DNA of 64,000 bases. It comes from a virus. Where the stretch lies: positions 1 to 64,000 of IMG/VR virus record IMGVR_UViG_3300027287_000002. The stretch is one strand, 5' to 3'. Of this stretch, positions 5,281-45,219 are shown in pieces. A program made the translations under genes and the position numbers. The stretch's first letter is position 1. Each line of letters opens with the position of its first letter. Below the pieces are notes generated by a model. That model ran no database searches and was not told where the DNA came from. It worked only from the letters and a program-made list of their open reading frames with translations.

Positions 5281-6513
5281 TTAAAATACTCTTTTAAATA
5301 TACCTTCTACATCTATATGCTGTTCTACATCATTTAGACCTAAGACATCTGATAACTTTCTATTTTCTTTATATGCCTCAAAACTTGCTGATTGCACAAG
5401 CTGATAAGCATAATCTCTTGAATATCCTTGATCTACATATCTTGTTAAGATCGTCTGTGATAAATATAAATCATTCGCCTCTTCTATATTTGCCAGCATC
5501 CTAGCTTTATCTACTTCAAGATTTAAAACCATCTCATTCAATCTCTTTAAAGCATAATCACATAAGCCTGTTGCATCTTCACTTATTACTCTTTCTACAC
5601 TAGAATGAGATATATCTCTTTCATGCCATAGAACTACATTCTCAAGAGCAGGTATGGTATATCCTCTTAATAGTCTTGCAATACCTGTTAGGTTTTCTGC
5701 ACTAATAGGATTTCTTTTATGTGGCATTGCACTAGATCCTTTTTGACCTTTGCTAAATCCTTCAAACACTTCACCAACAGATGATTGATGTAAATTTCTT
5801 ATCATCACTGCTATTCGTTCAATAGATGATCCTATTAAACCAATGATACTAAAAAACAAACCATGTCTATCTCTTGGAATGATTTGTGTAGATATAGGCT
5901 CAACCTTTAAACCTAATTTATCTGCTACGATCTGTTCAACTTCCATAGGTACAATACTATAATTGCCTACGGGTCCTGATATTTGCATATATGAGATTTC
6001 ATCTATTGCTTGTAAAAGTCTTTCTTTATTTCTTAACCATTCAGAATAGAAACTTAAAAGCACAAGACCAAAAGTAGTTTTCTCTGCATACATACCATGA
6101 GATCGTCCCATCATATAAGTGTATTTATGGTCAATCGCTTTCTGTTTAAGAGTTTCTAATAAAGCATCAATACGATTGACTAATTGATTGCCTGCCATTT
6201 TTAATTGTAAAGCAAAAGCTGTATCTAAAACATCACTGCTCGTCAATCCTCTATGGATATGTTTTTTAATGTTATCTGTTTTAGATACAGATGCAAGGAA
6301 AGCTAGAACTTCATGCTTTAAAGTTTTTTCATGTTCTTTAATAGCATTAGGATCAATATGGATTTGTTCTAGTTCGGTAGAAACACCTTTGGGAATAATG
6401 CCTAGATGTTCGTATGCTTTACAGACTTCAATTTCAATTAAAAGGAAAAGATTAAATTTATCTGTTTCATTCCAAATGGAAAGCATTTCATTAGTTTGGT
6501 ATCTTGTGATCAT
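5281..6513 (-). CDS. purB: Adenylosuccinate lyase
   Basis: PurB cleaves adenylosuccinate to AMP plus fumarate and SAICAR to AICAR in purine synthesis. The 410-residue protein carries the fumarase/aspartase-superfamily signature GSSAMPHKRNPISAENL with its catalytic serine loop, RSHGMYAEKTTFG with the catalytic histidine region, and LTSSDVLDTAFALQL. It is slightly shorter than typical bacterial PurB (about 430). AAGGAGATTCTTAT precedes the ATG. PurB is rare in phages. With a MazG-like enzyme and ThyX in the same window it points to active management of nucleotide pools, possibly of a modified purine if a PurZ-like synthetase exists elsewhere. Confidence 0.93.
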   Translation of the reverse strand: MITRYQTNEMLSIWNETDKFNLFLLIEIEVCKAYEHLGIIPKGVSTELEQIHIDPNAIKEHEKTLKHEVLAFLASVSKTDNIKKHIHRGLTSSDVLDTAFALQLKMAGNQLVNRIDALLETLKQKAIDHKYTYMMGRSHGMYAEKTTFGLVLLSFYSEWLRNKERLLQAIDEISYMQISGPVGNYSIVPMEVEQIVADKLGLKVEPISTQIIPRDRHGLFFSIIGLIGSSIERIAVMIRNLHQSSVGEVFEGFSKGQKGSSAMPHKRNPISAENLTGIARLLRGYTIPALENVVLWHERDISHSSVERVISEDATGLCDYALKRLNEMVLNLEVDKARMLANIEEANDLYLSQTILTRYVDQGYSRDYAYQLVQSASFEAYKENRKLSDVLGLNDVEQHIDVEGIFKRVF

Positions 6514-10694: not shown

Positions 10695-12128
10695 ATGTTT
10701 TATTTACTCATACTTATACATTTTGTCATTTTCATTTCAACATCTTATGCACAGGATGTTCAAAATTTCTCTTTGGCGAATGATAAATTTAAATACTTTA
10801 GTGTAGATCATGCAGATGTCTTAGAAAAAGGCGAACTCAATCTTAACAACTCTTTAAGCTATGGAAAAAATCCTTTAATCCTAACCAATCCTAAAGAATA
10901 CCTTGTAGACCAAATCACAACTTACCAAATAGCAGGTGCTTATGGCATCTTGAATAATAAGTTTCAACTAAACTTTGATTTTGGTTATGGTTTTACTACA
11001 GGTAGAAAGCCTGCCTCTTTAGACAGTGGATCAGGTTTTAATAACTTTAAGATTGCATCTAAAGTGAAAATCTATGATCAAAATAAACTTAAAGTTTCTT
11101 TACTTATGCCTATTGCTATTCCTTTAAAAGATAGCAAATCACTTGGATCAAGTTCTTTTCTTATTTCATTTAAAGGTATCGCAAGCTATCAAATCACACC
11201 TGTCTTAAATGTTTCCCTTAATCTAGGTTATCGCTATCGTTTAAATAAATCTAATGACTACTCGCTGGATGATGCTATTCTTTATGGTCTAGGCTCTCAA
11301 TATAAAATACTAGATGATTTTAGTATTAAAGCTGAAGTCTTTGGCAGGTACTTTTTTGTTGATAGTATTAATCCTTTAGAGTTTTTACTTGGTGCGAAAA
11401 GAAATGAAAAAACATGGTTTGTAGAACTTGCTATTGGTAGAGGCATCACATCTGATTACTCATCTGTCAGTTTTAGATTTCTTTTTAACTTTGGTCTTAT
11501 TTATGGTTTAGATACAGATAAAGATGGTTTGCCTGATTCAGTAGACCAATGTCCAAATCACTCAGAAGATAAAGATGAACATTTAGATGAAGATGGTTGT
11601 CCTGATACAGATAATGATAAAGATGGCATTTTAGATAATGCAGATAAATGTCTAAATGATGCAGAAGATAAAGATAACTTTGAAGATCAAGATGGCTGTC
11701 CTGATTTAGATAATGACAAAGATAATTTAGCTGATGCTTTAGATCAATGTCCTTATTCATCTGAAATCATAAATGGTATAGAAGATCATGATGGTTGTCC
11801 TGATGGTGTAGCAAAGACAATAGAAACTTTAGAAATGAAGAATGAGATTTATTTTGAAAAAGGTACATCTGTGATTATGCCAATGAGTTATCCATTTGTA
11901 TATGATTTAGCACAAGTGATAAACAAAAACGAGGCAATTACTGAAATTGTTATAGAATCCACAAGTGAAAATATTCAAATGTCATTTGATCGTGGTGAAG
12001 CAGTAAAGAAAGCATTAAAGAGTTTAAATGTGAAAGCGAATATAGTAGTTAAAGGTGTTCAAGGTACAGAAGAGAAATTTGAATTTAAAGTAGTATTGGT
12101 TTCAAAGGTATTACTTCTTAGTCCCTAG
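10695..12128 (+). CDS. Secreted OmpA-like outer-membrane protein with TSP3 calcium repeats
   Basis: Start 10695 is supported by CAGGCAGGAACATAT and by a clean signal peptide, MFYLLILIHFVIFISTSYA, cleaved before QDVQ. Residues 20-270 alternate in the way of an outer-membrane beta-barrel. Four thrombospondin type 3 repeats follow (DTDKDGLPDSVDQCP, DNDKDGILDNADKC, DNDKDNLADALDQCP and a final EDHDGCPDG). The last 100 residues resemble a diverged OmpA peptidoglycan-associated domain. Such proteins belong to the outer membranes of Gram-negative bacteria. Finding one among phage-type genes suggests capture from the host and remodelling of the host surface, or that the element is not a phage. The 3' end overlaps the convergent topoisomerase gene by 18 bp. 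Confidence 0.85.
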   Translation: MFYLLILIHFVIFISTSYAQDVQNFSLANDKFKYFSVDHADVLEKGELNLNNSLSYGKNPLILTNPKEYLVDQITTYQIAGAYGILNNKFQLNFDFGYGFTTGRKPASLDSGSGFNNFKIASKVKIYDQNKLKVSLLMPIAIPLKDSKSLGSSSFLISFKGIASYQITPVLNVSLNLGYRYRLNKSNDYSLDDAILYGLGSQYKILDDFSIKAEVFGRYFFVDSINPLEFLLGAKRNEKTWFVELAIGRGITSDYSSVSFRFLFNFGLIYGLDTDKDGLPDSVDQCPNHSEDKDEHLDEDGCPDTDNDKDGILDNADKCLNDAEDKDNFEDQDGCPDLDNDKDNLADALDQCPYSSEIINGIEDHDGCPDGVAKTIETLEMKNEIYFEKGTSVIMPMSYPFVYDLAQVINKNEAITEIVIESTSENIQMSFDRGEAVKKALKSLNVKANIVVKGVQGTEEKFEFKVVLVSKVLLLSP

Positions 12129-13406
12129 TGCTTTTTCAATAAATACCATTGGATCAAATTTTAAAGTTTGCTTTTTATTTAAGACAATATCTTCTAGTTT
12201 ATCTGCCACTTCACCTGTCGCAAGGAATGACAATAAGACCTGTGGATTGATATAGGAATTGATAGTAGTGTTTTTACTTTCATGATTTAATGCTTTCTCT
12301 GATTCTTCAAATGCACCTTTAACCATAGATAAAACCTTATCTACAATTTCTTCTCTTGTGCTTTCTAATTCCAGATCTTCTAGCTTTTGTATTTCATCAT
12401 ATAGCTTATCTTCCCTTTTCTTTAAACTGTCTAGCAAGACTTGAGATGCTTTTAATTTTCTAAAGTCAGTTAGGTTTAAGATTTGACCAGATGCTTGTCT
12501 TAAATACTTGGATAAAACATCATTTGGGATAACAGAACCATCTTCTTTTAAAGTAGTACCACCAATCTCTTTAAGAACTTTAATAAGATTTGGATCATTG
12601 ACAACAGCTTTATTGATAGTGCCTTTCTTTCCTCTAAATTTAAGTTCTACTCTATTCCTGCTAAGAAACTTAATATGTCCTTCTTCTAAAGTAGATGCAC
12701 CATAGGTTTCCTCTAAATCTTTACTTTCAAGGTTGCCGGGACGGATGCCTGTTTCTAGCATTAAAGAAATAATGACAGCACATAGCTTTTTATCTTCATC
12801 TTTAGATTTAAGATCTTTGGATAATTGTTTTTTCAAATCGTCTATGCAGTTTAATAATTTCTTTTGTCTGTCCATCTTAGCTTTCATGTCATTGATTTGC
12901 TCTGCATAGACAGTTTTCATTTCTTTGATTTTGCCATTTTCACCAACATTAACAACAAGACTTTTAGGCAGGTATGTTAAGAAAGATTTAGGTATAATCT
13001 CTGTAAGTTCTTTTCTTTCCCTTTGTAAAACTTTCTTTTTCATGCCATTAATAACTTTATTCTTAATGTTATCTTCCCATACATCATCTACATCACTACC
13101 TTTAAGAACTTCAACAATACCATTGATTAAACTTTTAGGTGTCATGTTATGTCTATCTAGGAATAATTGAATGGCATCAGCTTTATCGTCTTTAAGTGCT
13201 TGTTTAATTTCTAGGTAAAATGATTCTTGATCTTGTTTAACTGCATTCCAAAGACCTTTTAAAGATCCTTTACCTTTGGTTAAACCTGTAGCAGATGAAA
13301 GTAATGCTTTAAAATCTTTTTTACCTTCTGTGCATTTTCTACTTTGTCTTCTTTTTTGTTTAAGAAGTTCTGCATCTTTATCTTCATCAGCATATCTTGA
13401 AAACAT
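12111..13406 (-). CDS. DNA topoisomerase IB-like protein, second copy (431 aa)
   Basis: Topoisomerase IB relaxes supercoils through a 3'-phosphotyrosyl intermediate. Family landmarks in order: MLETGIRPGN (first catalytic Arg), TYGASTLEEGHIKF, LKFRGKKGTIN (catalytic Lys), LTDFRKLKASQ (second Arg) and TTINSYINPQVL with the nucleophile Tyr385. A histidine precedes the tyrosine in ALNHES, near the position of the fifth catalytic residue. Compared with the copy just upstream it is 144 residues shorter, mostly in the N-terminal part. The two genes are 12 bp apart and probably form one transcript. Tyrosine recombinase is the alternative, but the SYINP and TYGASTL motifs are those of topoisomerases. 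Confidence 0.85.
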   Translation of the reverse strand: MFSRYADEDKDAELLKQKRRQSRKCTEGKKDFKALLSSATGLTKGKGSLKGLWNAVKQDQESFYLEIKQALKDDKADAIQLFLDRHNMTPKSLINGIVEVLKGSDVDDVWEDNIKNKVINGMKKKVLQRERKELTEIIPKSFLTYLPKSLVVNVGENGKIKEMKTVYAEQINDMKAKMDRQKKLLNCIDDLKKQLSKDLKSKDEDKKLCAVIISLMLETGIRPGNLESKDLEETYGASTLEEGHIKFLSRNRVELKFRGKKGTINKAVVNDPNLIKVLKEIGGTTLKEDGSVIPNDVLSKYLRQASGQILNLTDFRKLKASQVLLDSLKKREDKLYDEIQKLEDLELESTREEIVDKVLSMVKGAFEESEKALNHESKNTTINSYINPQVLLSFLATGEVADKLEDIVLNKKQTLKFDPMVFIEKALGTKK

Positions 13407-13418
13407 TTTTATTACCTT

Positions 13419-15146
13419 TTAACCATTAGCAATAGCTTGTTCTAATAAAATTTGTGGATCAAATCTTAAAGTAGTTTGACCACTAACAACAATATCATCT
13501 AGCTTATCTGCCATTTTACCTGTGGATAAGAAAGAAAGCAAGACTTGAGGATTGATATAAGAATTGATGGTAGTGTCTGCACTGCCATATAAATGTTGAT
13601 GGTTTAAAGCAATACTAGCATCCAAATATGCTTTACTTACAGCATCTAATGTTAAACTAATAATTTGATCTTTTACATCCGTGACTTTAGCTTTATGTAA
13701 TTCTACAATTTTCTTATATATTTCTTTTTGACTAGCTTTAAGACTATCTAAAACTGTTTGACTAGCTTTAAGTTTTCTAAAGTCAGTAAGTTTAATAGCA
13801 AAACCTGCAATGCCTACTAAATATTCTGTGAGTTTTGCTTGTGTAAATAAAGCACCACTATCATTTTCAAAAACATATTTATTTTCGCCTGTGCTTTCTA
13901 TAATCTTTTCAAGAATTTTCACAAGCTGTGGATTGGTAATCTGTGCGATATTTAAAGATCCTTTTTTCCCAATAAAATTTAATTCAAGACCACCATCTCT
14001 TAGTTTTTTAAAATGTTGCTTTAATAATGTAGATGCACCATAGGTTTGAACTTTCTCTAATTCATTTCCTTCTTCATCTATTTCATCAGTAGGCACACCC
14101 ATACCTTCATTGCCCGGGCGAATACCTGTTTCTAACATAATGGATATAATCAATCCCATAATTTTCTTATTATGGTTTGATCCTGCTATGTCTTTATCTA
14201 ATGCTGATCTAATTCTACTATATGCAAGTAATAACTTCTTTTGTCTTTCTATCTTTGCTTCCATATCATTCATTTTTTCAGCAAACATAGTCTTAATACC
14301 TGTGATCTTTTTATTGTTATCTACCTGCACAATCAGTGTATCAGGCAAAAACTTTAAAAAACTTTCAGGTATTGTTTCTATTAAAGTTTGTCTTTCTGTA
14401 TCTAGCTTTTGTACTTTATATGATGATTTTAAACCATTTTGAATCCTTGTCCATACATCATCTAAATTGGTTGAACTCACCATAAAGTAATCTCTAATTG
14501 CATAATAAAAAGCTACAGGTGCATCACCAGCAAAATACTTTTCTACAAATAGCTTTACTTGACTACTATTTTCACCTGCTAGGTCTTTTATTCTTTTCAC
14601 AAATAAAACTTTGTTTTTACCTACTGCATTCCATATATCTTCAAATTTACCTGCTTCACCATATACATTTCTAAACAAAGATCTAAAATCTTTTTTTCCT
14701 TGCTCTAAATGCTTCTCTTGTTGTTTCTTTTCCTGTTCTACTCTTTTTGCTTTATCTTCTCTTAAAGTATCTTTAATCGGTGGATATGATTCAAGATAGA
14801 GTACTTTTAATAAAGTTTCTTTCTCTGCCATCAATTGTTCTATATTGCCACCTGCAAAATACTTATCTCTTATCATATATGCAAAAGTATTCGTTCTTGA
14901 ATCCTTGTTATCTTTATTAGTGCCTGTGTATTTACTAATAAATGCTTTAAATGCTTTATTCGTCAATATCCGTGCTTTATATTCTCTTGCTGTTTCACTT
15001 TTTTTAGGTGGCAAACCATCTGCTACTGCTTTCAATTCATCTGTAGCATTACTCTTATATTCTGTTAAAGATATTGACGATGTACTACCTGTCTTGACAA
15101 ATGCTAATGCTTTCTTAAGCCAATAATTAAAATCTTTTCTTAACAT
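13419..15146 (-). CDS. DNA topoisomerase IB-like protein, first copy (575 aa)
   Basis: The landmarks are MLETGIRPGN, TYGASTLLKQHFKKL, LNFIGKKGSLN, LTDFRKLKASQTVLD and TTINSYINPQVLLSF, with the nucleophile Tyr530. The N-terminal 180 residues are a separate Lys/Glu-rich helical region, beginning MLRKDFNYWLKKALAFVKTG and including a KRVEQEKKQQEKHLEQGKK helix. ATAAGGAGCATATAAGG gives the ribosome site, and a class B promoter lies at 15181-15200. Family members from bacteria and poxviruses are 310-350 residues, so this form is unusually long. Two tandem copies that both keep the catalytic residues may be partners (hetero-oligomer) or specialised enzymes, one possibly virion-associated. Confidence 0.87.
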   Translation of the reverse strand: MLRKDFNYWLKKALAFVKTGSTSSISLTEYKSNATDELKAVADGLPPKKSETAREYKARILTNKAFKAFISKYTGTNKDNKDSRTNTFAYMIRDKYFAGGNIEQLMAEKETLLKVLYLESYPPIKDTLREDKAKRVEQEKKQQEKHLEQGKKDFRSLFRNVYGEAGKFEDIWNAVGKNKVLFVKRIKDLAGENSSQVKLFVEKYFAGDAPVAFYYAIRDYFMVSSTNLDDVWTRIQNGLKSSYKVQKLDTERQTLIETIPESFLKFLPDTLIVQVDNNKKITGIKTMFAEKMNDMEAKIERQKKLLLAYSRIRSALDKDIAGSNHNKKIMGLIISIMLETGIRPGNEGMGVPTDEIDEEGNELEKVQTYGASTLLKQHFKKLRDGGLELNFIGKKGSLNIAQITNPQLVKILEKIIESTGENKYVFENDSGALFTQAKLTEYLVGIAGFAIKLTDFRKLKASQTVLDSLKASQKEIYKKIVELHKAKVTDVKDQIISLTLDAVSKAYLDASIALNHQHLYGSADTTINSYINPQVLLSFLSTGKMADKLDDIVVSGQTTLRFDPQILLEQAIANG

Positions 15147-18349: not shown

Positions 18350-19462
18350 ATGAATAAAACTCTACTCTTAAAACTCTATCTTGAAAAACCTGCCACTGAT
18401 ATTGCCAAAGAACATAATCTTAAACCTGTTCAAATTCAAAAACTCTTAAGACTTTATAATATACCTAAACCTTATCGTAATAAAGATGGCAAAGCACTTG
18501 ATGTAAATCACATCCTTGATCTCTACCATAACCAAAAGAAATCTATTAAAGAAATCAGCTCTATGCTCAACTCTACTTTAGATATGATCACTAATCTCTT
18601 ATATGACAGAACACCTACACCTAAACCTACCTGCGACCAGCTTAAAGCCTGCTTAAACCTTTCCAAAAGACAAATTGCTCTCAAATTCAATCTTAAAGAA
18701 TATGATGTGCATAGACTATTACTTGAATATAAACTTAGCTACAATCCTTTTAACCTGTCTAAAGAAGAATTACAGAAAGAATACCAATCACAAACCATTT
18801 CACAGATAGCTAAAAAATATCATGTAGATGCTATCTATGTTTCTGTTAAACTTAAAGAATATGGCATCCTTAATGAAATCAATATAGAAGAACTTAAAAG
18901 ACTTTATTGTGATGAAAGAAAAACCATTAAAGAAATCATTTATTTGTTAAATTCATCTGAAACTACTTTGTGGCGACTTATTAAAAAACATAAACTGCAA
19001 AGACCTTTCAATCCTAATCCACATGAATTTTTTAAGCTGTGGCATGACAAGACCAAAACAGTAGATGAGAATATACGATATATGGCAGAATATTATAAAG
19101 TGTCTATAGGTATTATTCGCTTGACTGCTAGAAAATTAAATATCAGTAAAAAGACCACACCTATCAAAATTAAATATACACAAGAGCAATTACAGGAACT
19201 TTATGACAAGCATGACTTATTTGGTTTATCTGTTATTCTTAAAATGAATGTTGCTAATGTAAAACGAGCATTAGTAAGACATGGCATCACTATTAAAAAG
19301 CCACCTGTTAAACCAATGGATTTAGATCGGATTACACAGCTATATAAGACAAAATATTTAGATTTAAAAAACTTGTATGCTATTCAAGAAATTGCAAAAG
19401 AACTAGATGTTGCACCTACAACACTTCACAGGTTTATTCGTTCACATAAAATTACAAGATAG
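18350..19462 (+). CDS. Eight-repeat helix-turn-helix array protein (370 aa)
   Basis: The whole protein divides into eight consecutive HTH-like units of 40-50 residues, for example ATDIAKEHNLKPVQIQKLLR (unit 1), TISQIAKKYHVDAIYVSVKL (unit 4) and TIKEIIYLLNSSETTLWRLI (unit 5). No extra catalytic domain is visible. Unit by unit it aligns with the protein at 21075. Both share a CDERKTIKEI/CVEHKSLQEI unit 5, a long unit 6 and a GL..ilkM..anvkRAL.R.GI unit 7. The ribosome site is buried in a hairpin and a palindrome lies upstream, which fits autoregulation. Expected role: binding of a long or composite DNA site. The 3' end overlaps the convergent gene by 21 bp. Confidence 0.85.
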   Translation: MNKTLLLKLYLEKPATDIAKEHNLKPVQIQKLLRLYNIPKPYRNKDGKALDVNHILDLYHNQKKSIKEISSMLNSTLDMITNLLYDRTPTPKPTCDQLKACLNLSKRQIALKFNLKEYDVHRLLLEYKLSYNPFNLSKEELQKEYQSQTISQIAKKYHVDAIYVSVKLKEYGILNEINIEELKRLYCDERKTIKEIIYLLNSSETTLWRLIKKHKLQRPFNPNPHEFFKLWHDKTKTVDENIRYMAEYYKVSIGIIRLTARKLNISKKTTPIKIKYTQEQLQELYDKHDLFGLSVILKMNVANVKRALVRHGITIKKPPVKPMDLDRITQLYKTKYLDLKNLYAIQEIAKELDVAPTTLHRFIRSHKITR

Positions 19463-19875: not shown

Positions 19876-20094
19876 ATGTTAGAAATGCTTATTGACTACA
19901 CAGACCACTTATCATTCATGGTAGATGAAACCTACTTAGATTTTCCCAACCACATGATTGCATTTGAAGAAGATCTTTATGGCAATCTTTATCTTATTCA
20001 AAAGGATTGGATCTTTAGCAAAACACCTGTAGAATTTGAAGAAGCAGTAGAAATTGTTAAGAACTTGCCTGAACCTATTTATTATCTAGATTAG
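19876..20094 (+). CDS. Small acidic protein (72 aa)
   Basis: AAAAAGGAAAAACATC precedes the ATG, and a class A promoter with ATGTTT as second box lies 50 nt upstream. It is a short acidic protein (FEEAVEIVKNLPEPIYYLD). No family recognised. Its end overlaps the first small-protein array by 20 bp. Confidence 0.65.
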   Translation: MLEMLIDYTDHLSFMVDETYLDFPNHMIAFEEDLYGNLYLIQKDWIFSKTPVEFEEAVEIVKNLPEPIYYLD

Positions 20095-20311
20095 GTGCAA
20101 GGTAAAGATCACTTGAATTCTGCCACTCTGATTTATGTAAAGATTTAGCTATACTTAAAGATAGTGAACATCTAAAATATTCAGGATATACATAAAAACC
20201 TCTTGTACCACCATCTAATCTACAAGACCTTGAACTTATAGAAGACAAAGCAAATTTAAAAGTCTTAGAATTTAAAACTTCATCTGATGATATTTCTAAC
20301 CAATAGATCAT
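20075..20311 (-). CDS. Array small protein A4 (family S12)
   Basis: Member of the twelve-copy small-protein family. I chose start 20311 (MIYWLEISSDEVLN) because it aligns with MICWFE and MVYWFE of relatives. It keeps YPEYFR at the NxR position and the ending DLYLAP. The usual SSTS block reads SSISSRS. It is the last gene of the first cassette. This subgroup (YWLE/CWFE/YWFE start, LAP or LAL end) also includes the members at 22997 and 23647. Confidence 0.75.
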   Translation of the reverse strand: MIYWLEISSDEVLNSKTFKFALSSISSRSCRLDGGTRGFYVYPEYFRCSLSLSIAKSLHKSEWQNSSDLYLAPNLDNK

Positions 20312-20312
20312 T

Positions 20313-20552
20313 TTATATTTCACCACACTTTCCTATATACCTATCTGAATTATTTATCCAAGTAGGTTTAGACAACACTCTAGCACCAAATAAAGCAATT
20401 GCTAGTCTAAAGTTATCTGTGTATAGGTAATGTCCTATTCCTTTTATTGCCAGCTGTTTTGTTGGTGAGGTGGATGATGTTATATAAACACCTTGTAATG
20501 TATGACATACATCATTACTGTCATTGCTAAAGAAACCATAATGACTACTCAT
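20313..20552 (-). CDS. Array small protein A3 (family S12)
   Basis: The protein is 79 residues. It shows the family frame clearly: SHYGFFSNDSNDV at the start, VYITSSTSPT in the middle, HYLYTDNFRLAIALFGARVL, then TWINNSDRYIGK at the end. Its start overlaps the end of the gene upstream by 4 bp. No signal peptide or membrane helix. Function unknown. Confidence 0.8.
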   Translation of the reverse strand: MSSHYGFFSNDSNDVCHTLQGVYITSSTSPTKQLAIKGIGHYLYTDNFRLAIALFGARVLSKPTWINNSDRYIGKCGEI

Positions 20553-20782
20553 TTATCTTTTCCTATATACCTATCTTGATCGTTTATCCAATTATGTTTG
20601 GATAAAACCCTTGCACTATATAAAGCAATACAATGCCTTATGTTGCTTTGGTGTATATATGTTCCCATTCCTTTAATATCTCTGATAGTACCTGCTGTTG
20701 TAGATGATGCTAGATAAACAAGTTGACCAGAAAACTGTACATTATTTCCATATGATGCAAGGAAGCCATAGTGATTACTCAT
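20549..20782 (-). CDS. Array small protein A2 (family S12)
   Basis: The protein is 77 residues with SNHYGFLASYGNNV, YLASSTTAG, TYIHQSNIRHCIALYSARVL and WINDQDRYIGK. At DNA level it is strikingly similar to the member at 24158, in the other cassette (both encode TYIHQSNIR and WINDQDRY), indicating exchange or recent duplication between cassettes. Confidence 0.82.
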   Translation of the reverse strand: MSNHYGFLASYGNNVQFSGQLVYLASSTTAGTIRDIKGMGTYIHQSNIRHCIALYSARVLSKHNWINDQDRYIGKDK

Positions 20783-21019
20783 TTATATTTCTTTTCCTAT
20801 GTAAACATCATTGTTATTTAACCCTGATCTCTTAATAAGAGATCTTGCACCAAACAGTCCTATGGACAACCTAAAGTTATCTTTATACATATATGTACCA
20901 AAACCTTTAATATCTTTAGTAGTGGCTGGTGAAGTAGATGATGTTAGATACGCCCCAGATGCAGAATGACATACATCATTACATCCATTGTGAAAAAAAC
21001 CATAAGGTGTTTTAGTCAT
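20783..21019 (-). CDS. Array small protein A1 (family S12), first gene of cassette 1
   Basis: The protein is 78 residues; AAAAGGAATTAAC precedes the ATG. It contains YGFFHNGCNDV, AYLTSSTSPAT, TYMYKDNFRLSIGLFGARSL and NNNDVYIGK. Its start lies 55 bp from the divergent HTH-array gene at 21075, with a 12-bp palindrome in that gap that could regulate both. Confidence 0.82.
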   Translation of the reverse strand: MTKTPYGFFHNGCNDVCHSASGAYLTSSTSPATTKDIKGFGTYMYKDNFRLSIGLFGARSLIKRSGLNNNDVYIGKEI

Positions 21020-21036
21020 GTTAATTCCTTTTCAAT

Positions 21037-21048
21037 ATCTTATAAGAT
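21037..21048. promoter_or_regulatory. 12-bp palindrome between array cassette 1 and an HTH-array gene
   Basis: ATCTTATAAGAT shares its TCTTATAAGA core with the palindrome at 15508 and lies between divergent starts at 21019 and 21075. Candidate operator. Confidence 0.45.
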
Positions 21049-21074
21049 TTCTACAAGAAAGGACTGCAAAAAAA

Positions 21075-22217
21075 ATGACAAAAGAATTATTAAATGATCT
21101 TATCCAAACCATGTCACATACTGAAATGGCATCTCATCTTAATATCTCGCTTAACCATTTAAGAAGACTATTAAGAGTTCACAATATCAAAAAACCTTTA
21201 AAAGATAAAGCAGGCAATCCTATTAATCTTAAATATGTTGAAACCTTGTATGATGCAGGACATCCTGTTTCTAAAATCCATATTATGGTTAATGCTTCTT
21301 TTGATGCCATCTCTAACTACCTCAACCTAAATAAAATTCGTATTAGTAAAAAACTACTACAACACTACTTTATTGATGAAAAACTTTCCCTTACACAAAT
21401 AGCTGATCGTTTTGGATCATCTCTTTCTACTATTAAAAAATACCTACTACTCTATGAAATCATAAAACCTGATATTCATATTGAGAAACACGATTTAGAA
21501 TCACATCCTAATATACTTGTTTCCGAACTAGCTATTCTCTTTAACACAGATAAAGAAACGATTAGCTACTTTCTTAAAAAATATGACTTGTCTAAAAAAG
21601 GCAAAGTCAATCAAGAAAAACTACAACAGCTTTATTGTGTTGAACATAAATCACTACAAGAGATTGCAGACCATTTTAAAATCTCACATATAACTCTTTG
21701 GCGAAGGATTAGACAATATAAACTCACTAGAGAATTTAATCCTGATATAGACCTCTTTGAGCAAAAACTCTCTGAATATAGAGACCTACCTATGCACAAG
21801 GCTAAACAAAACCTTGCGAAATATTATAATGTTTCTGTTGGTGAAATTGAAATCTTTTTTAAAAAGCACAATCTACTTAAAAAAAGAAAAAGAAGAAAGG
21901 TTACCTACACAAATGACCAGCTAAGAAAGATGTATGAAAGACTTGGGATTAAAGGTCTTATGAAGAAACTAGATATGACTGAATATAATGTTAAAAGAGC
22001 ATTAAAGAGAAATGGTATCTTGCCATATAGCAAACCAAATAAAAGACTTGTCTTATCTATTCCTAAAGACCATATCAAATATCTCTACCATAAGAAATAT
22101 GAACATTATAATGCACCTAGTGCAAGACAAGCAATGGCAGATGAATTAGGTTTATCTTTATATGCAGTTACAAGGTATATTCAAATGTATAATCTAAACA
22201 GACCAAGAATTTTCTAA
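21075..22217 (+). CDS. Eight-repeat helix-turn-helix array protein, second copy (380 aa)
   Basis: Start 21075 gives MTKELLNDLIQ, matching the first unit of the relative at 15641 (MTKEDLIKLL). GAAAGGACTGCAAAAAAA precedes it. Eight HTH units are visible, e.g. SHTEMASHLNISLNHLRRLL (unit 1), SLTQIADRFGSSLSTIKKYL (unit 3) and SLQEIADHFKISHITLWRRI (unit 5), and it is collinear with the protein at 18350. A basic KKRKRRK patch separates units 6 and 7. No catalytic domain is seen. It sits between the two small-protein cassettes and diverges from the first, so it is a candidate regulator of them. GroES follows 13 bp downstream. Confidence 0.85.
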   Translation: MTKELLNDLIQTMSHTEMASHLNISLNHLRRLLRVHNIKKPLKDKAGNPINLKYVETLYDAGHPVSKIHIMVNASFDAISNYLNLNKIRISKKLLQHYFIDEKLSLTQIADRFGSSLSTIKKYLLLYEIIKPDIHIEKHDLESHPNILVSELAILFNTDKETISYFLKKYDLSKKGKVNQEKLQQLYCVEHKSLQEIADHFKISHITLWRRIRQYKLTREFNPDIDLFEQKLSEYRDLPMHKAKQNLAKYYNVSVGEIEIFFKKHNLLKKRKRRKVTYTNDQLRKMYERLGIKGLMKKLDMTEYNVKRALKRNGILPYSKPNKRLVLSIPKDHIKYLYHKKYEHYNAPSARQAMADELGLSLYAVTRYIQMYNLNRPRIF

Positions 22218-22230
22218 AAGGACACTTCTT

Positions 22231-22503
22231 ATGAAACCATTAAATCAAAATGTGATTATCAAACCATCACCTGTAGAACCACAATCCCAATCAGGTTTAT
22301 TTATTCCAGATACTGCTAAACAAGACCAATCTATTGCTACTGTGATTGCAATAGGCACAGGTTATCCAAATGGCAAACCTTTAACAGTAAAGGTTGGCGA
22401 TAAGGTAGTTTATTCCAAGTATGCAGGTGTAGAACTTAATTATGAAGATCAAGAGTATTTGGTCTTATCTGAATCGGATCTTTTGGCTGTGATTAAAAAT
22501 TAA
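22231..22503 (+). CDS. groES: Co-chaperonin GroES
   Basis: The 90-residue protein fits Cpn10: MKPLNQNVIIKPSP at the start, the mobile-loop region QSQSGLFIPDTAKQDQ (normally the GroEL-binding loop with a hydrophobic tripeptide), ATVIAIGTGY, and VKVGDKVVYSKYAG followed by EYLVLSESDLLAVI. GroES caps the GroEL chamber. Phage versions (for example T4 Gp31) adapt host GroEL for capsid protein folding. AAAAGGACACTTCTT precedes the ATG. It lies 13 bp after the HTH-array gene. No GroEL gene is in the window. Confidence 0.93.
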   Translation: MKPLNQNVIIKPSPVEPQSQSGLFIPDTAKQDQSIATVIAIGTGYPNGKPLTVKVGDKVVYSKYAGVELNYEDQEYLVLSESDLLAVIKN

Positions 22504-22518
22504 TATTTTATTTATATG
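22501..22518 (+). promoter_or_regulatory. Class B (late-type) promoter
   Basis: TAATATTTTATTTATATG; its first 17 nt are identical to the copy at 4821. It overlaps the GroES stop codon and lies about 40 nt before the start at 22558. Confidence 0.5.
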
Positions 22519-22557
22519 CAAGTCTTTATAAAACAACTTTGAAAAGGTAAAGATAAA

Positions 22558-22821
22558 ATGAGAAGATTTGCAAATACAGAATCATCAGAAATGCAAGCTA
22601 AAGTAATCCAAAAAATTCTTGAAAACCAAATTGCAGATAACTTTTATATAAATGATGAAATGAAAAAAAAAGTTAAACAGCTTTTAGCAACTATGGATAT
22701 GGAAGCTATCGATGAAGATCTTATGGATGATATTGATTATGCTTTTGATGCTTATGCTAAAGCCATGCAGAATTTCTTTTATTATGCAGAGAAATTAGAA
22801 GATCTTATTAAACTTGTTTAA
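22558..22821 (+). CDS. Small helical, possible virion protein (87 aa)
   Basis: GAAAAGGTAAAGATAAA precedes the ATG and a class B promoter lies upstream. It begins MRRFANTESSEMQAKVIQK, basic then helical, and is all-alpha with an acidic middle (MEAIDEDLMDDIDYAFDAY). The late-type promoter suggests a structural or packaged protein. No homology recognised. Confidence 0.7.
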   Translation: MRRFANTESSEMQAKVIQKILENQIADNFYINDEMKKKVKQLLATMDMEAIDEDLMDDIDYAFDAYAKAMQNFFYYAEKLEDLIKLV

Positions 22822-23000
22822 AAAACCATTTTAGAAAAGAATGGTTTAAACCAAGTTAGCATTATTGTACTTCCTATTCCACAACCTAATGCAGTTCCTA
22901 TAAAGCACAGACAAAAAGTTAAGATTGCTTTATTTCTTATCTTATTATCACTCGCATCTACATATCCTGTTCTCTTTAAGAAAAACTCTAACTCATTCAT
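22818..23000 (-). CDS. Small membrane protein at the end of array cassette 2 (60 aa)
   Basis: The start overlaps the stop of the array gene upstream by 4 bp, so it is in the same operon. After a charged N-terminal half (MNELEFFLKRTGYVDASDNK) there is one long hydrophobic segment (ILTFCLCFIGTALGCGIGST). It is not a member of the S12 family. Its position as the last gene of the cassette makes a functional link with the small proteins possible. Confidence 0.65.
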   Translation of the reverse strand: MNELEFFLKRTGYVDASDNKIRNKAILTFCLCFIGTALGCGIGSTIMLTWFKPFFSKMVF

Positions 23001-23221
23001 TTATCTTCCTTACATGGTGCTAAATACCTATTAGGATTTAATATCCAATTTCCTCGTCCAATAACTTCTCTATTTCTTGCAGTGGACAAGGCTACAAACA
23101 CTCTAAAATTAATAGGAAAGATTTCAATACCTGATTTACTTGATGCTATGCTAGATAAGGTAAAAACACTATGCTCGTTTCTAGTAACTTCATTACTACT
23201 TGTTTCAAACCAACAGATCAT
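22997..23221 (-). CDS. Array small protein B8 (family S12)
   Basis: The protein is 74 residues with MICWFETSSNEV at the start, TLSSIASSKSG, FPINFRVFVALSTAR and NWILNPNRYLAP. It is one of the more divergent members: the WIN..D.Y end reads WILNPNRY. It overlaps its neighbours by about 4 bp on each side, indicating translational coupling through the cassette. Confidence 0.75.
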   Translation of the reverse strand: MICWFETSSNEVTRNEHSVFTLSSIASSKSGIEIFPINFRVFVALSTARNREVIGRGNWILNPNRYLAPCKEDK

Positions 23222-23427
23222 TTTTCTTCATCCTTATTAGGTGCTAGATACACATTTTCATATTTTATCCAATCATCTTGTATAATTCTTTTTGCCACAA
23301 ATAAAGATATTCTTTTCTTATCATATCCATTTAAAAAAGCACTATGTCCTATTTTAGGTATGCTACTTAATACAGTAGTGCCTTGTGCATACAAATGCAC
23401 AATATTACTATCAAATACAAAATACAC
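23218..23427 (-). CDS. Array small protein B7 (family S12)
   Basis: The protein is 69 residues. MYFVFDSNIVHLY, SSIPKIGHSAFLNGYDKKRISLFVAKR and NVYLAPNKDEE mark it as the closest relative of the member at 24639, which has the same MYFVFDSNIV start and YDRKRISLFV. This subgroup lacks the SSTS block. Confidence 0.75.
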   Translation of the reverse strand: MYFVFDSNIVHLYAQGTTVLSSIPKIGHSAFLNGYDKKRISLFVAKRIIQDDWIKYENVYLAPNKDEEK

Positions 23428-23429
23428 TT

Positions 23430-23645
23430 TTAGTTATCCTTATTAGGTTTTAAAAACCTGTCTTGATCATTTATCCTAGTATGTTTAGGTAAAATTCGAG
23501 CATTAAATAATCCTACACTTTCTCTAAAATTACTGTCCTGTACATATAAGCCTCCACTATGAGAATAAAATTTACAGGATTGCAAATAAACAAGTTGCTG
23601 TCCTTGCCATACATTATTTGAATCACTTATGAAATAAAATCTCAT
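23430..23645 (-). CDS. Array small protein B6 (family S12)
   Basis: The protein is 71 residues with MRFYFISDSNNV, LVYLQSCKFYSHSGG, YVQDSNFRESVGLFNARIL and HTRINDQDRFLKP. It combines features of the YGFF and MYFVF subgroups, which suggests mosaic exchange among members. Confidence 0.75.
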   Translation of the reverse strand: MRFYFISDSNNVWQGQQLVYLQSCKFYSHSGGLYVQDSNFRESVGLFNARILPKHTRINDQDRFLKPNKDN

Positions 23646-23646
23646 A

Positions 23647-23859
23647 TCATTTCTTTCTTAAAGCTAGATAAACATCATCTCTATTTATAAAGCTGGCTGT
23701 ACTCACTAACCTTCTACTCATATATAAACAGACAGATCTTCTTATATTAAAAGGCTCTACATATAGACCATGATTTACAGATGATACACCACTTAATAAA
23801 AATACATCCTGTATGTTTTTTCCTATGTTGTTATTATTGTTCTCAAACCAATAAACCAT
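23647..23859 (-). CDS. Array small protein B5 (family S12)
   Basis: The protein is 70 residues with MVYWFENNNNNIG, VFLLSGVSS, YVEPFNIRRSVCLYMSRRLV and FINRDDVYLAL. A hairpin at 23892-23924 lies upstream and separates it from the first four members of cassette 2, so it may begin a separate transcript or be expressed by read-through. Confidence 0.75.
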   Translation of the reverse strand: MVYWFENNNNNIGKNIQDVFLLSGVSSVNHGLYVEPFNIRRSVCLYMSRRLVSTASFINRDDVYLALRKK

Positions 23860-23891
23860 AAGCTATCTTCCTTATATATAGAAATCGTGAT

Positions 23892-23924
23892 TTTTTACCT
23901 ATATTGTAAAAACATAGGTAAAAA
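23892..23924 (-). terminator. AT-rich hairpin inside array cassette 2
   Basis: TTTTTACCTAT (23892-23902) pairs with ATAGGTAAAAA (23914-23924): an 11-bp stem and 11-nt loop just after the stop of the gene at 23926. It may be a weak terminator dividing the cassette; operator is the alternative. Confidence 0.45.
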
Positions 23925-23925
23925 C

Positions 23926-24165
23926 TTATATTGTTTTACCTATATAGACATCGTTACTGTTTATCCAATTTGATTTTATTAATGATCTAACACTATATAA
24001 AGTAATACATCTTCTCATATTATTCTTATACATATATAAACCATTTCCCTGTACCTCTCCCCTATTCATATGACCCGGGGATGTGAAAGATGTCATATAA
24101 GCACCTTGAGTAGCTCCTGTAATGTTATTTTCTTTAGATGTGAAAAAACCATAGTGATTACTCAT
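23926..24165 (-). CDS. Array small protein B4 (family S12)
   Basis: The protein is 79 residues with SNHYGFFTSKENNI, AYMTSFTSPGH, YMYKNNMRRCITLYSVRSLI and WINSNDVYIGK. It overlaps the upstream gene by 8 bp. A short insertion (MNRGEVQGN) lengthens the central loop, the most variable part of the family. Confidence 0.8.
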   Translation of the reverse strand: MSNHYGFFTSKENNITGATQGAYMTSFTSPGHMNRGEVQGNGLYMYKNNMRRCITLYSVRSLIKSNWINSNDVYIGKTI

Positions 24166-24403
24166 TTATCTTATCCTCTCTTCCCATGTACCTATCTTGG
24201 TCGTTTATCCATGTGTGTTTTGATAACACCCTTGCACCATATAAAGCAATGACTTGCCGTATGTTACTTTGGTGTATATATGTTCCAAATCCTTTTAAGT
24301 GATGTTTTCCACCATCGGATGTTGAGGACATTAAATAAGCACCTTGAACAGACCACTGTACATTATTACCTTCACTGATAAAGAAACCATAGTGATTACT
24401 CAT
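24158..24403 (-). CDS. Array small protein B3 (family S12)
   Basis: The protein is 81 residues with SNHYGFFISEGNNV, AYLMSSTSDGG, TYIHQSNIRQVIALYGARVL and WINDQDRYMG. It is very close in DNA sequence to A2 at 20549 despite lying 3.6 kb away, the best evidence for duplication or gene conversion between cassettes. Confidence 0.82.
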   Translation of the reverse strand: MSNHYGFFISEGNNVQWSVQGAYLMSSTSDGGKHHLKGFGTYIHQSNIRQVIALYGARVLSKHTWINDQDRYMGREDKINE

Positions 24404-24636
24404 CTTATCTTATCCTTACCTATATAGGCATCATTACTGTTTATCCATTGTGATTTTATAAGTGTCTTTACTACAAATAAACTCACTGTCTGTCTTATAT
24501 TATTTTTCTCTACATAATAACCAGCTTGCCCCATTAAACCTATACCACATCTAGGATAAGACCTTGTACTTAATAAATAACAATCCTGCATACCATGCTG
24601 TATGTCATTCCCATTACTATTAAAATAACAAATCAT
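24400..24636 (-). CDS. Array small protein B2 (family S12)
   Basis: The protein is 78 residues with MICYFNSNGNDIQ, CYLLSTRSYPR, YYVEKNNIRQTVSLFVVKTLI and WINSNDAYIGK. Two extra cysteines are present near the start and middle. Start and stop overlap or abut its neighbours, so it lies in the same operon. Confidence 0.8.
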   Translation of the reverse strand: MICYFNSNGNDIQHGMQDCYLLSTRSYPRCGIGLMGQAGYYVEKNNIRQTVSLFVVKTLIKSQWINSNDAYIGKDKIR

Positions 24637-24638
24637 TC

Positions 24639-24836
24639 TTATCTCTTTGGTGCTAAATAAACATCATCATGCTTTTCCCATGATGATTTAATAACTGATC
24701 TACATACAAATAAAGATATTCTTTTTCTGTCATATCCTCTTAAATATGCACAGTGTCCTATCTTTGGCTCACCACTAAAAAGTAAAACCCAAGAAGTATT
24801 CGTCCTCACTATATTACTATCAAATACAAAATACAT
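24639..24836 (-). CDS. Array small protein B1 (family S12), first after the methyltransferase
   Basis: Start 24836 (MYFVFDSNIVRTN) is chosen by alignment with the member at 23218. An earlier start at 24854 would overlap the methyltransferase. It keeps YDRKRISLFVCRSVI and HDDVYLAP. It begins 15 bp after the methyltransferase stop, linking the array to the modification gene in one likely transcript. Confidence 0.75.
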   Translation of the reverse strand: MYFVFDSNIVRTNTSWVLLFSGEPKIGHCAYLRGYDRKRISLFVCRSVIKSSWEKHDDVYLAPKR

Positions 24837-24850
24837 TCTATTACTTCGGA

Positions 24851-26413
24851 TCATTCTTTTAAAAATCCATATTCATATACACCCGGTCTTAACTTATCAC
24901 CTAAAACCTTATGCAATTCTTTTAACTTCTTAAAATCTGCATTATACTCTTTTTCCCAAAATCCCTTTAACTGATACCACCCACAATCCCAACATAATAA
25001 CTGCAACTCAGGATTCGCTTTAGCATATGCCTCTCTTGTTGCCAATGACTTTAACCATAATTCTGTAGCATGAACTAATAATGCCACTGCCTCTTCACTT
25101 AATGTCAATTCTGCTATTAATGTAGACACATAAGATTCTTCATAATACTTCTCATAATCTGCTAACATCAATGCACTATGCTCTTCTATTGCACCACGAA
25201 TGCCATATCTCTCTAACCAAAAGAAATGATTCTTAATTTGCCAAATCTCACCACCCCATGATACATCTCTCATAGATGTACAATTATTCTTCGTTTCAAA
25301 AATAGAATAAATATGTCCATCATCCACCCACTGCTCATAGCCTGTCTTTACTTCACTTGATGTATGCTTATATTTATTCCCTTCGTCTAACCACCTCTGT
25401 GTAAATGGTATCGATGGATATGCAATATATTCAATTTCTTTTTCAGGTGCTTTTTTAATTGGACCCGTCTTTTCCCTTTCCTTGATTTTAAGACCACTTG
25501 TCATAATTGGATATTCATAGGTTTCCATATCTTTAATAGGTTCTCTAACCCACTCACTTGCTGGCATATGATTATCGCAATTATAAATCTGTTTCCATCC
25601 ATAATGACTTGCATCAAGATTTTTAATTTCTAACTTTGGATCTGTCTTAGTTTTCCCTTCACTCCAAATCGTAAAGCCTACTCCCCATTCAGATGAAACA
25701 CCTGCAAATGCACTCGCATTAAAGAAAAATCCTGCTTTAAATTCAAAGGCATTGTAATACCATTCTCTAAATTTCTTTGCTGTTTCCTGAATCATAAACT
25801 TGATTGGTGAAAAGAAACATAAACTGACTTTCTTATATCCAAAATACTTTGCCTGTCTTGCACATTCAAAAATAAATTGAAAATATAAATTAGAACGACA
25901 AGCACCTAAATGCAACATCTTTTCTTTAACAAGTGTATTACTCACACCTTCTTTATTTTCTTCATCATCTGCAAGTGTACCTGCCGCCGCATATGGTGGA
26001 TTAATAAAGAACACAAGTCTTTTACCTGCCTTTGCTCCTGCATATAACTGATCTTGCACTGCATCTGGAATAACATTGCTTTCATCACCTAAGCTAAACA
26101 AACATCCATCTGTATCTGTTGGATTTAAGAAATCATACTTAAAAGCATTTTTAAATCCTTGCTTATGTAGTAAATCCACTTCAGGTTGCTCTAATGTAGA
26201 TAAGATTAAATTCTTAAAATCATATTCTCTAATCAAATTGCCTGAGCCTGAACAACAATCCCATACAAGACTTTCTTCTTTCCAAGTTTCACCTAAGACA
26301 TTACTTGTTAAGGTATGTGCTTGATCCACCCATAAAGCTGGTGTAAAAAATGCACCTTGTCTTGTTCGGATTTCATTCTCTAAGGTTTCATCATATCTGT
26401 GATGTTCACTCAT
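24851..26413 (-). CDS. DNA adenine methyltransferase (N6-type, NPPY motif), 520 aa
   Basis: AdoMet-dependent N6-adenine methylase. Early residues RTRQGAFFTPALWVDQ match the motif X region of type I/IIG methylases. VWDCCSGSGNL (around Asp52) is motif I and FFINPPYAAAG (about residue 138) is motif IV. The remaining 300 residues probably contain target recognition. Unlike type IIG enzymes there is no N-terminal nuclease. The start overlaps the upstream coiled-coil gene by 4 bp (ATGA), so the two are co-translated and may form a complex. The small-protein array follows at once. Could be protective modification or part of an unusual defence or anti-defence locus. Confidence 0.88.
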   Translation of the reverse strand: MSEHHRYDETLENEIRTRQGAFFTPALWVDQAHTLTSNVLGETWKEESLVWDCCSGSGNLIREYDFKNLILSTLEQPEVDLLHKQGFKNAFKYDFLNPTDTDGCLFSLGDESNVIPDAVQDQLYAGAKAGKRLVFFINPPYAAAGTLADDEENKEGVSNTLVKEKMLHLGACRSNLYFQFIFECARQAKYFGYKKVSLCFFSPIKFMIQETAKKFREWYYNAFEFKAGFFFNASAFAGVSSEWGVGFTIWSEGKTKTDPKLEIKNLDASHYGWKQIYNCDNHMPASEWVREPIKDMETYEYPIMTSGLKIKEREKTGPIKKAPEKEIEYIAYPSIPFTQRWLDEGNKYKHTSSEVKTGYEQWVDDGHIYSIFETKNNCTSMRDVSWGGEIWQIKNHFFWLERYGIRGAIEEHSALMLADYEKYYEESYVSTLIAELTLSEEAVALLVHATELWLKSLATREAYAKANPELQLLCWDCGWYQLKGFWEKEYNADFKKLKELHKVLGDKLRPGVYEYGFLKE

Positions 26414-42786: not shown

Positions 42787-43242
42787 TTAAATTTTATAAA
42801 GTCTAAGAAAAGGTAGTAACAAGTCTGTAGATGCAAGTGCAGAATTAAAAAGAGAATTTAAGGATGACATTTTATGTAACATAAGATTATCGGAAACAAT
42901 AATTTCATCGGAAAGAATACCAAGAACATAAAGATTTTGATCTTTATCAAAAAAATGTGCAGGTAGTGAAGGATGTGGTGTGAAAGAATTTAAGATAACT
43001 TGATAGTATTCAAATTTCTGATGGATAAGAGAAAGAAAAAGATGTGCAACTTGTTCTGCTTGTTGAAAAGAGAAAGAGTATTTTCTTTGCAAGAAAGGTT
43101 TAAGAAGAAGTTTATGTGGTGAATCAAGAAATTCTTGAATGGTTTGTAAATCATGATCAAGAAGAACATGAAGATCAGAGACAGGTTGGATGTCAACCTG
43201 TGCAGAAGAGTTATCGAGTGCAAAATGGATATTGTAAAGCAT
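42787..43242 (-). CDS. Unknown protein, paralog of 44767 (151 aa)
   Basis: Clear homolog of the protein at 44767 on the other strand: EFLDSPHKLLLKPFLQRKYSFSFQQA / EFLDTPAKALLYPFFRNENFSFDDA, DKDQNLYVLGILSDE / DHDQNLHVLGLISSE, and the end LLPFLRLYKI / YLPFVRLYKI. Mostly helical. Two copies about 1.5 kb apart on opposite strands mean an inverted duplication. A class A promoter lies directly upstream. Function unknown. Confidence 0.78.
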   Translation of the reverse strand: MLYNIHFALDNSSAQVDIQPVSDLHVLLDHDLQTIQEFLDSPHKLLLKPFLQRKYSFSFQQAEQVAHLFLSLIHQKFEYYQVILNSFTPHPSLPAHFFDKDQNLYVLGILSDEIIVSDNLMLHKMSSLNSLFNSALASTDLLLPFLRLYKI

Positions 43243-44524: not shown

Positions 44525-44767
44525 ATGAAAGCTACTCTTTTCTCTACCAATGGTACTAAATCAGAAATCGAACTCACTTCTTTTTCTCATGCACAATCTA
44601 TTGTTGATGGTCTTGTTGAAATCATTCCTATGAAGAATGATCTCATCCTTGTTAATGAAGAAGGTTTGGGATTAGAACTACCTTCTAATCCTTTCTTTCC
44701 TAACCTTAAAGGCAATATCCTTGTTGTCAATACCAAACTCTTTAACAACATTCCTTATAAAGACTAA
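44525..44767 (+). CDS. Small early-type protein (80 aa)
   Basis: AAAAAAAGGATATGCTCT precedes the ATG. The TTGCAA at 44464 lacks a clear GTGTTT at 22 nt, so this gene may share the promoter at 43810 or use a degenerate one. The protein is acidic and beta-rich (FSHAQSIVDGLVEIIPMKND). Its stop overlaps the next ATG. Confidence 0.7.
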   Translation: MKATLFSTNGTKSEIELTSFSHAQSIVDGLVEIIPMKNDLILVNEEGLGLELPSNPFFPNLKGNILVVNTKLFNNIPYKD

Positions 44768-45219
44768 TGTTTAGAACTCTACACAAACCTTTTCTTAATT
44801 CTTATGGCATTATTGAAATCTTGCCTATCTCTATCCAAACTCTCAACCAGCTTTATCAACAAGATCTTTCTCTTCTTTCTGAATTTTTAGATACTCCTGC
44901 TAAAGCACTCCTTTATCCTTTCTTTAGAAATGAAAACTTTTCTTTTGATGATGCACATAAAGCTGTTCATGCTTTATCTCATGCCATCACTCTCAAATAT
45001 CAGTTCTACATTTCTACTCTTAACTCTCTACAACCTACTCACTCTCTTTCTCTGTTCTCTGATCATGATCAAAACCTTCATGTGCTTGGTCTTATCTCAT
45101 CTGAAGAACACTCAGATGATGGTCTCCTACATAAAATGTCTACTACCAATTCTCTTTTTATGCACATCCTTCCTAATATCCAGCTCTATTTACCTTTTGT
45201 CAGACTCTATAAAATCTGA
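44767..45219 (+). CDS. Unknown protein, paralog of 42787 (150 aa)
   Basis: The start overlaps the previous stop (TAATG). Strong similarity to the protein at 42787 (EFLDTPAKALLYPF, DHDQNLHVLGLIS, YLPFVRLYKI). Mostly helical, with many Leu and His. Function unknown. Confidence 0.75.
   Translation: MFRTLHKPFLNSYGIIEILPISIQTLNQLYQQDLSLLSEFLDTPAKALLYPFFRNENFSFDDAHKAVHALSHAITLKYQFYISTLNSLQPTHSLSLFSDHDQNLHVLGLISSEEHSDDGLLHKMSTTNSLFMHILPNIQLYLPFVRLYKI

Follow-up and report, generated by a model that had tools for sequence, protein, structure and literature searches.

Several arrangements are known in which a DNA methyltransferase (MTase) is assembled from parts or serves more than one recognition module. 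Temperate phages of Bacillus encode multispecific C5-methyltransferases, in which the recognition modules are arrayed in one polypeptide (PMC12707154, citing Trautner et al. 1996). Type 1 1/2 MTases employ separate single-domain S subunits (PMC3874165). Furthermore, fragments of M.SssI that are inactive alone regain activity together by trans-complementation (PMC3404938). Exchange of specificity is known to involve either whole HsdS subunits or in-chain arrays of recognition domains.

Here, we analyzed a window of 64,000 nucleotides, the first part of a 146,708-base metagenomic virus record, in which numerous tiny genes lie beside a shortened MTase gene. We propose that the small proteins probably complete this MTase in trans, each with a different specificity, and thereby protect the phage from restriction.

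Cassettes of small genes

The window contains twelve minus-strand ORFs of about 69–81 aa each, mostly abutting or overlapping by 4 bases (Table 1). The twelve proteins align as one family with the shared blocks N-x-V/I, SS(T/S), N-x-R, and W-I-N-x-x-D-x-Y, in agreement with a preliminary description of twelve tandem paralogs in two cassettes. Cassette A comprises four genes (20075–21019) and cassette B eight (22997–24854), both on the minus strand; the end of cassette B had been placed at 24836. The gene reported at 20075 is present, with its start most likely at 20311, based on the alignment with the other members. The pair at 20549 and 24158, previously called nearly alike at the DNA level, is close, with 84% DNA and 71% protein identity. 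A search for the family elsewhere in the genome had been suggested, and a profile from the twelve proteins detected seven further members outside the window (cassette C, 67773–69349), directly 3′ of the DNA polymerase gene. The record thus carries 19 copies over three cassettes, a lower bound, since these metagenomic records are likely to be incomplete. Since baseplate, ligase, helicase, and primase genes are encoded, the source virus is, judged by its gene content, a tailed phage.

Several other genes in the window were recorded. Two plus-strand proteins composed of repeated helix-turn-helix units (18350–19462 and 21018–22217; PHROG D5-like regulator) flank cassette A, and the former is kept in a related record (G001, 68%), beside a cassette there. 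A phage-encoded GroES-like co-chaperonin is located at 22231–22503 (PF00166, E = 5.7e-26). Two adjoining proteins (12111–15146) both match the catalytic core of eukaryotic-type topoisomerase I (PF01028), and the protein at 5281–6513 resembles adenylosuccinate lyase (PF00206, phrog_1703). An ORF of 2,859 aa spans 45518–54097, and two proteins of ~150 aa on opposite strands (42787–43242 and 44767–45219) appear paralogue-like by eye.

Relationship of the small proteins to a methyltransferase

The small proteins gave only chance-level matches in Pfam and PHROGs, nothing of note in a sequence search of the PDB, and no HsdS-type match in the family library scans; Foldseek of a small-protein model against the PDB and viral predicted structures returned nothing significant. 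The pattern NF..s..LF.AR....tW.N..D.Yl.P presumably resembles part of a DNA methyltransferase. Plasmid proteins from Ligilactobacillus, Virgibacillus, Fluviibacter, Acinetobacter, and others align over the whole length of the 520-aa MTase encoded next to cassette B, and additionally hold a ~65-residue segment resembling the small proteins. The hhalign comparison between the small proteins and the segment site in the MTases yielded a probability of 98.6 (E = 1e-15).

We also constructed an HMM from 139 embedded segments, taken from MTases of other phages, plasmids, and bacteria, with this lineage excluded. This HMM recovered exactly the 19 small ORFs among the 1,011 in the genome (E = 3e-20 to 1.1e-8), while the best non-member ORF scored E = 0.28. 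As the HMM holds no sequence of the lineage, the family is not a chance pattern. Based on hhalign and the HMM of embedded segments only, we assigned the small proteins as free-standing copies of a stretch of ~65 residues that lies inside an adenine-N6 DNA methyltransferase. The family, previously described as unrecognised and left unnamed by annotation pipelines, thereby gains a name.

No free-standing copies outside this phage lineage were found among the loci fetched. Annotated phage records contained no relative of the small-gene region, B6, or the MTase, and the family is absent from the 485-kb phage with the nearest DNA polymerase in the annotated collection.

The phage methyltransferase and its missing segment

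The motifs DCCSGSGN and NPPY of the 520-aa protein are conserved with its homologues, and its identity to the plasmid-family MTases is 25–28% over the whole length. The motifs, their order, and the predicted fold of a homologue indicate a gamma-class N6-adenine DNA methyltransferase. The segment is missing in only two of 134 full-length MTases, those of this phage and of G001, in which 25 of the 64 segment columns are filled, versus at least 59 of 64 in the 132 others. Along the phage gene, the HMM match breaks off at 25421 and continues from 25420, while the profile jumps from 345 to 382. The segment has been precisely lost from the phage MTase. No complete target-recognition region was found within the 520-aa chain, and neither this record nor G001 contains an intact, segment-bearing MTase. 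The MTase stop codon overlaps the start of B8 (ATGA). The G001 enzyme, 82% identical to the phage MTase, is likewise followed immediately by a cassette. The dN/dS of the MTase is 0.12, and the catalytic motifs are kept.

Other assignments were considered and rejected. Three further candidates for segment-less MTases (L126, L128, and L165) contain diverged versions of the segment. A Type IIG enzyme does not fit, since no N-terminal nuclease is fused and the 520-aa protein starts at the MTase domain. An upstream 276-aa ORF, considered as a lost N-terminal domain, showed no NCBIfam match at E ≤ 1 and no Pfam match at E ≤ 0.001, and does not adjoin the MTase in G001.

Table 1. Small genes and MTase gene in the window. 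E-values in the small-gene rows refer to the match to the HMM of MTase-embedded segments.
Feature	Position	Strand	Evidence
A1, putative free-standing MTase segment, 78 aa, cassette A	20075..20311	-	E 9.7e-9
A2, putative free-standing MTase segment, 79 aa	20313..20552	-	E 1.7e-17
A3, putative free-standing MTase segment, 77 aa; nearest in-genome relative B6	20549..20782	-	E 1.3e-17
A4, putative free-standing MTase segment, 78 aa	20783..21019	-	E 5.2e-12
B1, putative free-standing MTase segment, 74 aa, cassette B	22997..23221	-	E 1.4e-11
B2, putative free-standing MTase segment, 69 aa, GTG start	23218..23427	-	E 2e-9
B3, putative free-standing MTase segment, 71 aa	23430..23645	-	E 3e-19
B4, putative free-standing MTase segment, 70 aa	23647..23859	-	E 1e-15
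B5, putative free-standing MTase segment, 79 aa	23926..24165	-	E 1.4e-15
B6, putative free-standing MTase segment, 81 aa; structure predicted	24158..24403	-	E 6.1e-18
B7, putative free-standing MTase segment, 78 aa	24400..24636	-	E 9.7e-18
B8, putative free-standing MTase segment, 71 aa; ATG overlaps MTase stop (ATGA)	24639..24854	-	E 6e-9
Predicted adenine-N6 DNA methyltransferase, 520 aa, without N-terminal nuclease-like part and internal segment	24851..26413	-	plasmid MTase homology; DCCSGSGN, NPPY
Short linker in MTase gene at missing-segment site, KEIEYIAYPSIPFTQRWLDEGNKYK..., similar in G001 MTase	25360..25435	-	

Position and predicted structure of the segment

In pairs of close MTases, the catalytic part is mostly about 75–100% identical, residues 250–370 roughly 45–65%, and the C-terminal part higher again; the detached segment corresponds to residues 327–391 in this comparison. 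For the L161/L164 pair, the identities were 0.86 (catalytic), 0.53 (preceding), 0.58 (segment), and 0.99 (following). The segment thus sits in the variable, apparently specificity-type region of the MTase. As this region varies between otherwise close enzymes, as target-recognition domains do, the segment may contact DNA bases and determine which motif is methylated.

The model of an intact homologue from a virus (pLDDT 89, pTM 0.88) matched the DNA-bound N6-adenine MTases M.BseCI, MmeI, CamA, and M.TaqI over about 300 aligned columns (TM 0.24–0.31), mostly in the catalytic domain. B6 was predicted with moderate confidence (pLDDT 79, pTM 0.61), and the order of secondary-structure elements is alike in the B6 model and the embedded segment of the intact-enzyme model. 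Free and embedded copies also tend to vary at the same positions (Spearman 0.64 for per-position variability).

Related phages and turnover of the repertoire

Five related records were obtained via DNA polymerase relatives in IMG/VR, all of which carry the small-gene family, and a sixth (G008) was reached through the small-gene family itself. The site adjacent to the polymerase gene contains seven copies both in this phage and in three almost identical records, eleven in G004 (polymerase 98% identical), two in the 316-kb record G001 (polymerase 90%), and one in G008 (polymerase 71%). G001 has three copies between helicase and primase, a place at which this phage has none. One fragment contains a single copy between SbcC- and SbcD-like genes, and another the same copy after SbcC, cut by the contig end. 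A family member in G001 (L012, 11044–11340) contains two partial domain copies, an apparent fusion or mosaic.

Orthologues of at least 83% identity in this phage were found for four of the eleven G004 copies. None of the G001 copies is more than 54% identical to those of this phage, at 96% identity of the helicase, 90% of the polymerase, and 82% of the MTase. The small-gene set therefore turns over largely or completely between phages with 90–98% identical replication proteins. The remaining orthologue pairs showed dN/dS values of 0.06–0.14 (polymerase, 0.04), indicating that the small genes are under purifying selection and translated. The strong selection for variety proposed previously is borne out as turnover of the repertoire; residue-level positive selection was not found by dN/dS in the orthologous small genes. 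Variety appears to arise by gain, loss, and long divergence rather than by visible positive selection.

Many other phages split an MTase of this family into a catalytic ORF and a specificity ORF of ~300–305 aa (L137, L172–L179, L184, and L194). In one separate specificity ORF (L209, 3413–4708 of IMGVR_UViG_3300009504_000092), the first half of the segment occurs as three tandem repeats with a unit of about 58 aa, which may represent an equivalent of the bank within a single chain.

Proposed mechanism and alternative explanations

The small proteins would represent detached, diversified copies of a ~65-residue piece of the MTase target-recognition region. The phage MTase itself retains the catalytic domain, the initial portion of the variable region, and the C-terminal domain. 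Docking of one small protein into the gap would complete the enzyme, and each variant may alter the recognition sequence or its tuning. Early in infection, a single core with 19 or more pieces could then methylate many motifs on the phage DNA, which would shield it from many host restriction systems. The overlap between B8 and the MTase gene, the location of cassette C after the polymerase gene, and the placement of cassettes among replication genes are what early protection of the replicating DNA would predict.

Completion in trans is favored by the position of both segment-less MTases directly upstream of a cassette, by the hhalign score and the selectivity of the segment-only HMM, and by the location of the segment in a region that varies between close MTases, together with the correlated variability of free and embedded copies. 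The element order shared by the B6 model and the embedded segment, the constraint on the catalytic motifs, the separately encoded specificity halves of other phages, and the partial repeat in L209 point in the same direction. On the other side, only two deletion MTases are known, from related phages; free copies also occur at sites away from the MTase, so the linkage is not universal; and the orthologous small genes are without positive selection. The M.SssI fragments, Type 1 1/2 S subunits, and Bacillus phage domain arrays render the individual steps plausible. On balance, the full scheme, in which one MTase core is served in trans by at least 19 exchangeable half-recognition subunits of ~75 aa, conferring many specificities and renewed by gain and loss of genes and cassettes, appears somewhat favored.

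The free segments might instead serve as dominant-negative decoys. By entering host restriction-modification enzymes of this family at the corresponding position, or by displacing the resident part, they would inactivate these enzymes, and their diversity would track host variants. Intact family enzymes, which the small proteins resemble in their segment, are common in bacteria and plasmids, and our scans detected over 500 MTase relatives in bacterial genomes and 85 in viral contigs. However, decoys leave unexplained why the co-operonic phage MTase is without exactly that segment, and in a tree of free and embedded copies the free ones cluster separately from the bacterial segments, unlike direct host mimicry. 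We consider this explanation unlikely. The tree is compatible with a single detachment.

Alternatively, after losing the segment, the MTase might have shifted or loosened its own specificity, and the free segments were then exapted, for example as DNA-binding regulators or nucleic-acid-binding replication factors. The cassettes among replication genes far from the MTase and the calculated isoelectric point of ~8–10 of most free copies would suit such roles, but scaffold positions conserved in embedded segments are also kept in the free copies, two MTases keep a cassette directly downstream, the MTase is still constrained, and the matching deletion in the co-operonic enzyme would be unexplained. 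Exaptation is therefore improbable. A structural, receptor-diversity, or other unrelated bank, for which the small size, multiple copies, and diversification would speak, is very improbable, given the clear homology to the MTase segment and the location of cassettes beside MTase, polymerase, helicase/primase, and SbcC/D-like genes, with none seen beside structural genes. Among the roles suggested previously for a diversified bank, the anti-defence option fits the evidence, whereas the homology to an MTase speaks against virion decoration and receptor diversity.

If the small proteins work in trans with the MTase, they would allow plug-in reprogramming of adenine methylation, and less than 5 kb of DNA would suffice for a large phage to forestall many restriction systems. 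DNA reading by this MTase family becomes testable with parts of ~75 aa.

Comparison with known systems

The plasmid single-chain MTases and restriction-modification proteins (Fluviibacter WP_187405719.1 and L. salivarius WP_011476642.1) belong to the same family along the whole 520 aa. They hold one copy of the segment inside the chain, whereas in the phage it is detached, and they possess an extra N-terminal part of ~250–350 aa that is missing from the phage protein. The phages with split ORFs likewise encode the specificity part of this MTase family separately, but there the whole C-terminal half is detached, in a single copy.

The C5-MTases of Bacillus phages (PMC12707154) similarly use one phage catalytic core to serve several recognition modules against many restriction systems. 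Those enzymes are cytosine-C5 MTases with in-chain modules; in contrast, this phage combines an adenine-type core with about 20 separately encoded copies of an internal half-domain. An in-chain multispecific MTase was rejected for this locus, since each copy is a separate ORF and only L209 repeats a portion of the segment within one chain.

In Type I HsdS and Type 1 1/2 S subunits, too, the recognition module is encoded apart from a gamma-MTase and is exchangeable; they comprise whole recognition domains with helical dimerization parts, usually one or few per genome (PMC3874165). The phage bank instead consists of a ~75-aa piece from the middle of an MTase, in 19 or more copies per genome. Assignment of the small proteins to these subunits was rejected, as they are only ~70–81 aa, match an internal segment, and lack an HsdS-type family match. 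The M.SssI fragments share with the proposed mechanism the trans-complementation between pieces of a monomeric DNA MTase, but they are artificial, derive from a C5-MTase, and involve neither a bank nor specificity exchange (PMC3404938).

We found no precedent in the open-licence literature searched for a bank of excised internal MTase pieces in the form of tiny proteins. Multispecific MTases and exchangeable S subunits are known; what is new is that the half-domain is internal and detached, and that the bank is so large.
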